From Halomicroarcula saliterrae (lineage in GTDB: Archaea; Halobacteriota; Halobacteria; Halobacteriales; Haloarculaceae), in NCBI RefSeq assembly GCF_031624395.1, contig NZ_JAMQON010000002.1, positions 186,001 to 250,000 of the forward strand: a stretch of DNA of 64,000 nt, read 5' to 3'. Of this stretch, positions 5,585-48,912 are shown piece after piece. The first letter of the stretch is position 1. Each line of letters starts with the position of its first letter. The notes under the pieces were generated by a model, which saw only the letters and a program-made list of their open reading frames with translations, made no database searches and was not told where the DNA came from. The translations under genes were made by a program, and so were the position numbers.

Positions 5585-6811
5585 CTACTGCGTCGCCCTG
5601 ACCACGTCCTCGTCGGTCGGCCCCTGTCCGTCGTAGGCCGCGACGAGCTCGTCCAGTCGGTCGGGGTCGTCCGCGCCGGGCAGCCGTCGCGTCGCGGTCT
5701 CGCATTCGGCGTCGACGCCGAGCCGGTCGCAGACGAGGTCGGCGGTCGCCTCGGCCATCTGCCGGTAGGTCGTCAGCTTCCCGCCGACGACACTGACCAT
5801 GTTCGAGACCCCGTCGTCGGCGTGGTCGAGCGTGAAAAAGCCCCGAGAGATACCTCGTCGGTTACCGTCGCCCTCGTCGGGCGCGTACAGCGGTCTGACG
5901 CCCCACCACTTCCTGACGACCGGGGCATCGGCGACCGGCGGCAGCATGTCGGCACACTCCTCGATGGACTTCTCGACTTCCCAGTCGGCCGTCTCGTAGT
6001 CGTCGGGGTCCGAGACGGAGACGCTCGTCGTCCCCAGGACGGCCTCGTGCTCGTGTGGGACCACGATGTCGCCGTCGTCGGGGTTCCGACAGCGGTTGAG
6101 GACCGGCCCCAGCCGGTCGTACTCGACAGAGACCATCACGCCCCGCGAGGGCGCCATCTCGACGTCGAGACCCGCCAACGCCGCTACCTTGCCGGCCCAC
6201 GCGCCCGCCGCGTTGACGACGTATTCGGCCTCGACGGTGTCGTCGACGTCCCCGCCGAGTCGGGCGTGTGTGACCTGCCCGTCCTCCACGGTCAGCTCCT
6301 CGACCGGGCCGTGGGGATGGATGGTCGCGCCGTGGTCCTCGGCGTCGGCGGCGTTGGCCGCACCGAGCCGCGAGGGGTAGATGGCGCCGTCGGGGACCAG
6401 CATCGCCCGTACGACGTCGTCCGAGAGGTCCGGCACGCGCTCGCGGGCTTCGTCGCCGTCCATCACCTCGGTCTCGATACCGATCTCCTCGCAGGCGGCG
6501 TGTTTCTCGTCGAAGTAGTCGGCGTCGTCCGCCGCGAGCTGGACGAACAGCCCGCCCGTGTCGCGGATGCACGCCCCGGCGATGTCGCGGAGTATCTCGT
6601 TTTCCGCGATACACTCCTCGGCGCCCACACGGTCGGCCTCGGCGTACCGGGCACCGCTGTGGAGCAGCCCGTGCGAGCGGCCGGAGGTCCCACTGGATAT
6701 CCCCCCGCGTTCGGCGAGTGTCACGTCGACGCCGCGGAGCGCGAGGTCCCGCGCGATACCAGTGCCCGTTGCACCGCCGCCGATGACCAGAACCGTGGTA
6801 GTGGTTGCCAT
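5585..6811 (-). CDS. FAD-dependent oxidoreductase related to glycerol-3-phosphate dehydrogenase GlpA, short form
   Basis: This 408-residue flavoenzyme of the DAO/GlpA type would oxidise a polyol phosphate or hydroxy acid and pass electrons on. The N-terminal FAD motif is GGGATGTGIARDLALRG (about residues 11-27), followed by TSGRSHGLLHSGARYA, as in GlpA/GlpD. Near residue 355 the flavin-contact segment VSVVGGKLTTYRQMAE is present. Anaerobic GlpA is usually well over 500 residues because it carries a C-terminal BFD-like iron-sulfur domain, and this protein stops before it. No glpB, glpC or glpK lies nearby. It is 42 bases downstream of an alcohol dehydrogenase gene on the same strand, which suggests a joint pathway. 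The substrate is uncertain. Confidence 0.82.
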   Translation of the reverse strand: MATTTTVLVIGGGATGTGIARDLALRGVDVTLAERGGISSGTSGRSHGLLHSGARYAEADRVGAEECIAENEILRDIAGACIRDTGGLFVQLAADDADYFDEKHAACEEIGIETEVMDGDEARERVPDLSDDVVRAMLVPDGAIYPSRLGAANAADAEDHGATIHPHGPVEELTVEDGQVTHARLGGDVDDTVEAEYVVNAAGAWAGKVAALAGLDVEMAPSRGVMVSVEYDRLGPVLNRCRNPDDGDIVVPHEHEAVLGTTSVSVSDPDDYETADWEVEKSIEECADMLPPVADAPVVRKWWGVRPLYAPDEGDGNRRGISRGFFTLDHADDGVSNMVSVVGGKLTTYRQMAEATADLVCDRLGVDAECETATRRLPGADDPDRLDELVAAYDGQGPTDEDVVRATQ

Positions 6812-46225: not shown

Positions 46226-46343
46226 CCGTCTGCGATTCGGCGGCGGGGACCGAACGCGGTGGGGGACGCCCTTTCCCGGCCGGGGCAGTTGACTCATCGC
46301 CGTTCGCCCCCGATTATTAATCTGTGAAATTTGGACGCGAGCC

Positions 46344-46349
46344 TTAAGA
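46344..46349 (+). promoter_or_regulatory. TATA box for the soluble transducer gene
   Basis: TTAAGA lies about 26 bases before the ATG at 46372, so the transcript should begin at the start codon. A further AT-rich box (TTATTAAT) lies 30 bases upstream of it. Confidence 0.5.
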
Positions 46350-46371: not shown

Positions 46372-48912
46372 ATGCCGGACAATCGCAGCGGCCAGAACAC
46401 CCGTGACGAGGTGACCGCGGACGGCGGCGTGGTCGAGCCCAAATCGGACGGCGAGGAGGCGGTAGACATCGAGTCGCTGTCCGACAGCGAGCTCCGGGCC
46501 GCGTTCAGGGAAGTCGAGAACGAACGGGACCAGGCCCGGAACCGCGTCAGCGAACTCGAAGACACAGTCGACGACCAGCAACACCGGCTCTACGACCTCG
46601 AAGGGTCGCTGGCCGAGCTTCAGGGCGTCGTCGAGGCCAACGCGTCGGGCGACCTGACCCGCCGGGCCGACATCGACTCGAACGTCGACTCCGTCGTCGA
46701 TTTCGTCTCCAGCTACAACCGGATGCTCGACGAGTGGAACTCGATGCTCAAGCAGGTCAAGGAAGTCAGTACGTCCGTCGACGAGTCGACCTCCGAGGTC
46801 GAGGAGGAGGTCGCGAAGGTCGACGAAGAGGGCGAACAGGTGAGCCAGTCCATCGGCGAGATCGCCGACGGCGCCCACGAGCAAAACGAACACCTCCAGC
46901 AGGTCGGCGACGAGATGCGCTCTATCTCCGCGACCATCGAGGAGGTGGCCGCCTCCGCGACCGAGGTCGCGAACACCGCGGAAGACTCCGTCGAGAGCGG
47001 GGACAGCGCCCAGCAGGCCGCCACCAAGGCGATAAACGACCTGGAGTCCATGGAGGTAAAGACCGAGGAGATGGTCCAGCAGGTCGAACAGCTCTCCGAC
47101 CTGATGGAGGACATCGAGGAGATAACCGAGTTCATCAACGACGTCGCGGACGACACGAACATGCTCGCGCTGAACGCCAACATCGAGGCGGCGCGGGCCG
47201 GCGAGGCCGGCGCGGGATTCGCCGTCGTCGCCAACGAGGTCAAGGACCTGGCCAACGAGACGAAGGAGGCGACCGACGAGATAAGCTCGACCGTCTCGGA
47301 GGTGCGCGACCAGACCGAGACGACGGTCGAGAACATGTACGAGACACAGGAGGTCGTCTCGCAGGCCGGCAGCGCGGTCGATTCGACCATCGACGGGCTG
47401 GACGACGTGGTCCACATGATAGACCAGGTCAACTCCAGCATCAAGGAGATAGACACCGCGGTCGACGAGCAGGCCCAGACCACGCAGTCGGTGGTCTCGA
47501 TGGTAGACGAGGTGAGCGCCGTCAGCGAGGAGACGACGGCGGAAGCGGAGACCGTCGCCGACGCCGCCGAGAGCCAGGCCGAGTCACTCACCGACGTGAC
47601 TCAGGAGGTCGGCGAGATGTCCCGGAAGGCCGAGCAGCTGGGCTCGACGGCCTCGCAGTTCACGACCGGCGAACGACAGCACCACACCGTCTCGAAGGGC
47701 GATACCGTCATCGACTTCTGGCACGCGATGGGCGGCTCGAAGTCGCTCCTGTTGCACGACTTCGCGCGGGAGTTCGAGGAGCGACACGGCTCCGTCCACT
47801 TCCGGCTGTCCTCGCTGGGGAGTTACGACGGCGTCTTGGACGAGAGTCTGGCTGCGGCCGGGAGCGACGAGATGCCCGCCATCGCACAGATAAACGAGAT
47901 CGGTAGCATGAAAGCGCGGCTGAGCGGGGCGTTCAAACCCGCCGAGCGCGTCCTGCCGGGGGCGTCGAAAGCCTCCCTGACGGACTCCGTGTCGGACTAC
48001 TACACGGTCGAGGGGGAGCTCCAGTCGGTGCCGTTTAACTCCTCGAACCCAGTGCTGTGTATCAACAGGGACGCGTTCGAGGCCGCCGGGCTGGACCCGG
48101 AGAACCCGCCCGAGACCTTCGCTGGGGTCCGCGAGGCGAGTCAGCAACTCGTCGACGCCGGCGTCTGTGACTACGGCATCACCTTCGCGAACTACTCGTG
48201 GTTCGTCGAGCAGTGGTTCGCCGAGGCCGGCCAGGAACTCGTCAACGAGCAGAACGGCCGGGCCGGCGTGCCCGACAAGGCACACCTCGACAGCGACTTC
48301 GGCCGCGAGTTCTTCCAGTGGTGGACCGATATGGAGGCCGACGGCCTCTACCACAACAGCGGTATCAAGGCCCGCGGGAAGGCCAAGAAGGCGTTCCACG
48401 ACGGGCGTGCGGCCATGCTCGTCGGGTCGACCTCGTCGCTGGGAAGCATCCAGTCCGGCGCCGACTTCGAGCTGAAAACCGGCTATCTACCGGTGCTCGA
48501 CGAGCGCAACGGTGTCCTCGTCGGCGGCGCCTCGCTGTGGATCGGCGACGAGCTCGACCCGCAGGTCGAACAGGCCGCCGGCGAGTTCCTGGCGTGGCTG
48601 CTCGAACCGGAACAACAGGCACGCTGGCACCGCGAAACGGGGTACTTCCCCGTCTGTGACGGCGCGGCCGACCTGCTGCGAAGCGAGGGGTGGTTCGAGG
48701 AGAACCCGCACTTCGCCACCGCCTTCGACCAGTTCCAGCAGTCCTCGGACACGCCCGCGACCAACGGGGCCCAGATGGGGCCGTTCCCGGAGGTCCGGGG
48801 CATCATCGAACAGGCCCGGGCCGAGATGCCCGTCGGCGACGACGTCGACGACGCGCTCCGCGCGCTGAACAACGAGATAGAAGCGGAGCTGTACAGCTGG
48901 GAAGCGCGATAG
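46372..48912 (+). CDS. Soluble chemotaxis transducer fused to a UgpB-like solute-binding domain
   Basis: This 846-residue protein has no signal peptide, lipobox or membrane segment. Residues 40-130 are a coiled coil with a HAMP-like helix (VEANASGDLTRRADI). Residues 130-430 form the methyl-accepting signalling rod, with the highly conserved tip at about 263-285 (NMLALNANIEAARAGEAGAG). From about residue 445 a full periplasmic-type binding protein domain follows (DFWHAMGGSKSLLLHDF), closest in pattern to UgpB. Residues aligned with the glycerol-3-phosphate contacts of UgpB are kept: Y485, E509, S557/558, S689, G718/719, Y758 and R809. The domain is therefore predicted to sense a phosphorylated glycerol compound inside the cell and signal to CheA. 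Confidence 0.9.
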   Translation: MPDNRSGQNTRDEVTADGGVVEPKSDGEEAVDIESLSDSELRAAFREVENERDQARNRVSELEDTVDDQQHRLYDLEGSLAELQGVVEANASGDLTRRADIDSNVDSVVDFVSSYNRMLDEWNSMLKQVKEVSTSVDESTSEVEEEVAKVDEEGEQVSQSIGEIADGAHEQNEHLQQVGDEMRSISATIEEVAASATEVANTAEDSVESGDSAQQAATKAINDLESMEVKTEEMVQQVEQLSDLMEDIEEITEFINDVADDTNMLALNANIEAARAGEAGAGFAVVANEVKDLANETKEATDEISSTVSEVRDQTETTVENMYETQEVVSQAGSAVDSTIDGLDDVVHMIDQVNSSIKEIDTAVDEQAQTTQSVVSMVDEVSAVSEETTAEAETVADAAESQAESLTDVTQEVGEMSRKAEQLGSTASQFTTGERQHHTVSKGDTVIDFWHAMGGSKSLLLHDFAREFEERHGSVHFRLSSLGSYDGVLDESLAAAGSDEMPAIAQINEIGSMKARLSGAFKPAERVLPGASKASLTDSVSDYYTVEGELQSVPFNSSNPVLCINRDAFEAAGLDPENPPETFAGVREASQQLVDAGVCDYGITFANYSWFVEQWFAEAGQELVNEQNGRAGVPDKAHLDSDFGREFFQWWTDMEADGLYHNSGIKARGKAKKAFHDGRAAMLVGSTSSLGSIQSGADFELKTGYLPVLDERNGVLVGGASLWIGDELDPQVEQAAGEFLAWLLEPEQQARWHRETGYFPVCDGAADLLRSEGWFEENPHFATAFDQFQQSSDTPATNGAQMGPFPEVRGIIEQARAEMPVGDDVDDALRALNNEIEAELYSWEAR

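Follow-up and report, generated by a model that had tools for sequence, protein, structure and literature searches.

A cytoplasmic haloarchaeal chemotaxis transducer with a C-terminal UgpB-type domain, its gene linked in many relatives to glycerol catabolic genes

Haloarchaeal taxis assisted by solute-binding proteins (SBPs) is known from the BasB/BasT and CosB/CosT pairs, in which a separate extracellular SBP lipoprotein docks on a membrane transducer. A soluble transducer that senses an internal metabolite is likewise on record in haloarchaea, since Car of Halobacterium salinarum is said to be a cytoplasmic arginine transducer (Storch 1999, as cited in PMC3648572); its sensor region and its ligand differ from those of the protein described here. 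Cytoplasmic chemoreceptors in which the sensor follows the MCP rod and which have no membrane span include Helicobacter TlpD and archaeal class V receptors with a C-terminal ligand-binding domain (PMC9680633); none is known to have a UgpB domain linked to glycerol genes. A 2022 survey notes C-terminal cytoplasmic ligand-binding domains in archaeal receptors and names SBP_bac among the receptor domains, its main text giving no further detail (PMC9680633). Receptors located in the cytoplasm, sensors placed at the C-terminus and haloarchaeal taxis aided by an SBP are all known kinds. Here we describe a protein encoded in a 64,000-nucleotide stretch of Halomicroarcula saliterrae DNA (the window; contig NZ_JAMQON010000002.1, positions 186,001 to 250,000), which, like the Bas and Cos pairs, brings together an SBP and a transducer but does so in a single cytoplasmic polypeptide. 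No prior description of a UgpB-MCP fusion, or of its link to glycerol genes, was found in the open-licence literature.

Domain order and cellular location

The gene encodes an MCP rod followed in the same frame by a solute-binding domain (Table 1), as a sequence-only reading of the window had proposed. Indeed, Pfam places MCPsignal (PF00015) at residues 212-384 (E 7e-42, above cutoff) and SBP_bac_8 at residues 465-783 (E 2e-35), and the top NCBIfam model is UgpB (E 1.3e-61). The latter score, 208 bits against a cutoff of 411, marks the domain as UgpB-like and not as a UgpB equivalog. The hairpin tip NMLALNANIEAARAGEAGAGFAVVANEVK of the rod is kept in the aligned orthologues. AF2 models N-terminal helices at residues 38-91, 106-164 and 171-275, and the stretch GDLTRRAD in this region can be read as HAMP-like.

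The same reading had found neither a signal peptide nor a membrane span, and this holds. The open frame comprises 854 codons and is closed 8 codons upstream of the ATG, which leaves no room for an overlooked N-terminal signal peptide or membrane span, and the highest Kyte-Doolittle 19-residue mean anywhere in the protein is 0.77, which argues against a span. No signal sequence is present in the fusion, and no ABC permease genes adjoin it in the window. An MCP has to face the cytoplasm to meet CheA/CheW, and no hydrophobic span lies between the rod and the SBP in any fusion checked; the SBP would therefore be cytoplasmic in all of these. Judged by its sequence, the window protein is a soluble cytoplasmic MCP-SBP fusion with its ligand domain C-terminal to the rod. 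Fusions from Halohasta and Halonotius (L046, L052, L054, L060) carry hydrophobic N-terminal segments, which suggest membrane-anchored variants.

Table 1. Features of the fusion gene and its upstream region (window coordinates)
Feature	Position	Strand	Basis
Putative promoter region	46312..46349	+	palindrome GATTATTAATC at 46312-46322 and TATA-like CTTAAGA at 46343-46349
MCP-UgpB fusion transducer gene, 846 aa	46372..48912	+	ATG start; ORF list, Pfam/NCBIfam, full-length orthologues
N-terminal helical region with HAMP-like stretch, residues 38-211, without membrane span	46483..47004	+	AF2 helices, hydropathy
MCP signalling domain, residues 212-384, conserved hairpin tip NMLALNANIEAARAGEAGAGFAVVANEVK	47005..47523	+	PF00015, tip alignment
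Low-confidence linker from rod to binding domain, residues ~420-444	47629..47703	+	pLDDT < 50 at 420-441
UgpB-type solute-binding domain, residues 445-846	47704..48909	+	SBP_bac_8, AF2, Foldseek
Tyr485 = UgpB Tyr64, phosphate contact	47824..47826	+	alignment
Glu509 = UgpB Glu88, glycerol hydroxyl contact	47896..47898	+	alignment
Ser558 = UgpB Ser143, phosphate contact	48043..48045	+	alignment
Asn607 at UgpB Trp188 position, clamp Trp lost	48190..48192	+	alignment
Trp610 = UgpB Trp191, second clamp Trp retained	48199..48201	+	alignment
Ser686 = UgpB Ser266, phosphate contact	48427..48429	+	alignment
Gly719 = UgpB Gly303, glycerol hydroxyl contact	48526..48528	+	alignment
Tyr758 = UgpB Tyr342, phosphate contact	48643..48645	+	alignment
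Arg809 = UgpB Arg393, glycerol hydroxyl contact	48796..48798	+	alignment

Predicted structure and ligand pocket

The AlphaFold model of the SBP domain, built with 42 relatives (pLDDT 95, pTM 0.92), has the fold of UgpB, the sn-glycerol-3-phosphate-binding protein. The top four PDB chains retrieved by Foldseek are all UgpB, ahead of sugar and dinucleotide binders, with TM scores by query of 0.92-0.93 (6x84), 0.87 (9lff) and 0.86 (4aq4); the closest PDB match is a W169S/W172S mutant entry. In a single-chain AF2 model of the full-length protein (pLDDT 66), residues 420-441 are unstructured, and the connection between the rod and the SBP is predicted to be flexible.

In Phaeobacter UgpB (PDB 9lff), Tyr64, Ser143, Ser266 and Tyr342 contact the phosphate, Glu88, Gly303 and Arg393 contact the glycerol hydroxyls, and Trp188 and Trp191 form a clamp; the Kd is 0.80 uM for sn-glycerol-3-phosphate (G3P) and 2.36 uM for sn-glycerol-1-phosphate (G1P) (PMC12718374). 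The same paper associates the emergence of the clamp with shrinkage of the pocket from glycerophosphodiester-type ligands (PMC12718374). We assigned the equivalent residues of the window protein by alignment to PDB 9lff/4aq4 and to these published contacts, with pocket geometry judged from the alignment. The sequence-only reading had listed residues at all the positions that it took as glycerol-3-phosphate contacts in E. coli UgpB. Y485, E509, S558, G719, Y758 and R809 stand as listed, but S689 does not, the phosphate serine being S686, one turn away. The seven polar contacts and W610 are thus in place; the clamp tryptophans were absent from that list, however, and Trp188 corresponds to Asn607.

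In 54 fusions, pairs of which share as little as 43% identity, the seven polar contacts and W191 are invariant, which amounts to 8 of the 9 contact sites versus 65 of 407 columns overall (hypergeometric P 2e-6). The position of W188 is held by Asn in 44 fusions and by Thr in 10, leaving the two-Trp clamp incomplete in every one. This change could alter the affinity, the specificity or the size of ligand accepted. The predicted fold and the polar contacts are common to UgpB and the fusion, but UgpB is an exported protein that works with an ABC importer, whereas the fusion domain stays in the cytoplasm, attached to an MCP.

The closest relatives of the domain belong to haloarchaeal UgpBAEC importers (L072, L085, L115) and have the same pocket, including Asn at Trp188; this Asn is therefore typical of haloarchaea and does not set the cytoplasmic version apart. 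These importers differ in having a Tat-type lipoprotein signal, permease and ATPase genes, and no MCP. Indeed, stand-alone haloarchaeal relatives carry Tat-type lipoprotein signals and lie in ugpB-ugpA-ugpE-ugpC operons, several of them with a glycerophosphodiester phosphodiesterase-like gene, and one exported relative (genome G016) adjoins glpABC and glpK. This context assigns the entire lineage of the pocket to glycerophosphate metabolism, and glycerophosphodiesters stay among the possible ligands. Two exported relatives, L029 and L030, have Ser in place of E88 and Gln in place of R393, and their ligand has probably changed.

Distribution and gene order

The same MCP-UgpB domain order, whose spread the sequence-only reading had left to a database search, occurs in about 50 haloarchaeal species from several families. 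Among 116 genomes from the family of the window's genome, a search recovered about two dozen fusions of full length, mostly 46-74% identical to that of the window, and 20 of them were aligned end to end. In a scan of genome contigs, named fusion loci came from Haloarcula, Halomicroarcula, Halomicrobium, Halapricum, Halorubrum, Halonotius, Halohasta, Haloferax and Halobiforma, as well as several MAGs; the window fusion is most similar to that of Haloarcula rara SHR3 (91% for the binding domain). With about 50 orthologous loci and 20 or more full-length orthologues, a frameshift, an assembly artefact or a chance fusion is ruled out. A tree of the SBP domain groups 48 fusion rows with one contig-cut row in a clade (92/88), places six Haloferax fusions outside it and gathers the exported stand-alone haloarchaeal relatives in another group (91/89); the fusion may thus have arisen in one event or in two. 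Extra fused frames in genomes G010 and G012 proved to be stand-alone exported SBPs, and L035 was tagged as an SBP alone only because its contig ends within the gene.

Gene order provides the strongest evidence on the function of the fusion. Genes of the glp set lie within 10 kb of it in at least 20 of 51 named loci, including those of Haloarcula, Halomicrobium, Halohasta and Halonotius, the count being a lower bound because several contigs end within the flank. The identities of GlpK, GlpA, GlpC and DhaL are borne out by NCBIfam. The usual place of a linked fusion is between glpABC and glpK, and there are at least three arrangements. In Haloarcula, Halomicroarcula, Halomicrobium and others, glpC-glpB-glpA is divergent from a run of fusion, glpK, membrane protein gene and orc; in Halohasta, Halonotius and A07HN63, glpABC is divergent from glpK, membrane protein gene, orc and fusion, followed by HPr/ptsI and, in Halohasta, by dhaL/dhaM; in SHR40, fusion, orc and glpK adjoin glpABC. 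The linkage was first revealed by a 2402-codon frame in L045 that seemed to fuse the transducer with glycerol kinase, a frame that in fact spans a masked N stretch over separate genes. Mere co-occurrence with glpK is weak as evidence, since glpK is present in 95 of the 116 genomes of the family.

Two neighbours of glpK recur. The conserved membrane protein encoded directly 3′ of glpK (L046 6038-7027 and equivalents) has no NCBIfam match and is glycerol facilitator-like by position, and an Orc1/Cdc6-like ATPase gene recurs beside haloarchaeal glpK (L046 7189-8355, L037 from 14077, L109 3340-4509).

The fusion lies away from glp genes in the clade of the window and in Halapricum, Halorubrum, Haloferax and Halobiforma. 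In the window's clade it adjoins a K+ uptake/APC-transporter region and a ribosomal protein cluster (gene names read from the sequences). The genome of the window has glpABC-glpK on contig C1 and a further copy of glpK on C2, together with one CheA (H-kinase_dim) and five MCPs, and a stand-alone UgpB gave no match in it; an endogenous ligand would fit this combination. No remnant of the fusion is found in the glpA-glpK gap of this genome. Congener G112 has a decayed copy between glpA and glpK (L111 10146-11591), its frame short and interrupted, with most of the MCP part gone and the C-terminus broken, and congener G109 is without a fusion copy in that gap. The two glpK-membrane protein-orc clusters of the window's genome lie at C1:737665 and C2:378706. 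The window itself encodes, about 40 kb from the fusion (5585-6811, minus strand), a 408-residue GlpA-like FAD protein, shorter than true GlpA and 50% identical to Halohasta GlpA over residues 9-423; a full glpABC set lies at another place in this genome.

Candidate ligands and signalling

We consider it probable that the window protein acts in the cytoplasm as a chemotaxis transducer, binding through its C-terminal UgpB-type domain an internally made glycerol phosphate, most likely G3P, and reporting to CheA. A sensor of an intracellular glycerol metabolite had already been proposed from the sequence, and linkage to the glp cluster, the polar pocket kept in 54 fusions and the predicted UgpB fold all support this interpretation. 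Incoming glycerol is phosphorylated to G3P by GlpK, and GlpABC oxidises the G3P, so that its pool tracks glycerol consumption. Binding of G3P to the cytoplasmic Venus-flytrap domain would close its two lobes. This domain connects to the MCP rod at the adaptation end, which closure would alter, presumably through the linker, thereby changing CheA activity and archaellum switching. The cell would then move according to its glycerol consumption, presumably with an attractant response, and haloarchaea with the fusion would probably steer by the amount of glycerol being digested. That a widespread class of haloarchaeal chemoreceptors steers in this manner by the cytoplasmic G3P pool, by means of an importer binding protein put to new use and with its gene built into the glycerol catabolic cluster, appears somewhat favoured by the evidence.

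Other ligands have to be weighed against G3P. The domain might instead sense cytoplasmic glycerophosphodiesters, lipid breakdown products that retain a headgroup, which we regard as unlikely: Asn or Thr at Trp188 would suit such ligands, as the two-Trp clamp is tied to shrinkage from a diester-type pocket (PMC12718374), and the phosphodiesterase-like gene occurs in operons of exported relatives that have this Asn, but the metabolite common to the linked glpK and glpABC is G3P and not a diester, and the phosphate and glycerol contacts are those of a UgpB that binds G3P and G1P. UgpB affinities for the latter two lie within threefold (PMC12718374), and G1P, the archaeal lipid precursor, is present in the archaeal cytoplasm. 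A domain that mainly reads G1P would couple motility to membrane synthesis, yet the conserved neighbours are catabolic glp genes and not those of the G1P pathway, and we find this distinctly improbable.

Members of the SBP family readily switch specificity, and a UgpB-like pocket could be a misleading inheritance in a domain that binds an unrelated sugar or polyol; the lost clamp Trp and the NCBIfam score under the equivalog cutoff would agree with this. All phosphate and glycerol contacts are nevertheless invariant in the 54 fusions, whereas L029 and L030 have changed two, which makes such a ligand very improbable. Least credible, and barely so, is a role in docking, for instance of a glycerol enzyme, instead of ligand sensing: the flexible linker and the glp linkage would fit, but strict conservation of ligand contacts would not be needed.

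Sensing of G3P by the fusion would provide a molecular link between catabolic flux and archaeal swimming, with a direct sensor of the metabolite built into the transducer, in organisms whose main food is considered to be algal glycerol. It would constitute taxis toward what is metabolised and not toward what is outside, would represent the re-use of a transporter binding protein as a cytoplasmic sensor, and would make metabolism-dependent taxis testable by single-gene deletions in archaea that are non-pathogenic.

No regulatory motif common to the fusion gene of the window and the glp promoters of the same genome was found. Upstream of the fusion, the TATA-like element, 23-29 bp 5′ of the ATG, and the palindrome GATTATTAATC form a putative promoter region. 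GATTANTAATC has a single match within the window, with 0.14 expected when one mismatch is allowed. The palindrome is perfect, occurs once in the window and is possibly a regulator site; L032 and L033 retain it, within a conserved upstream region, ahead of their orthologous genes.
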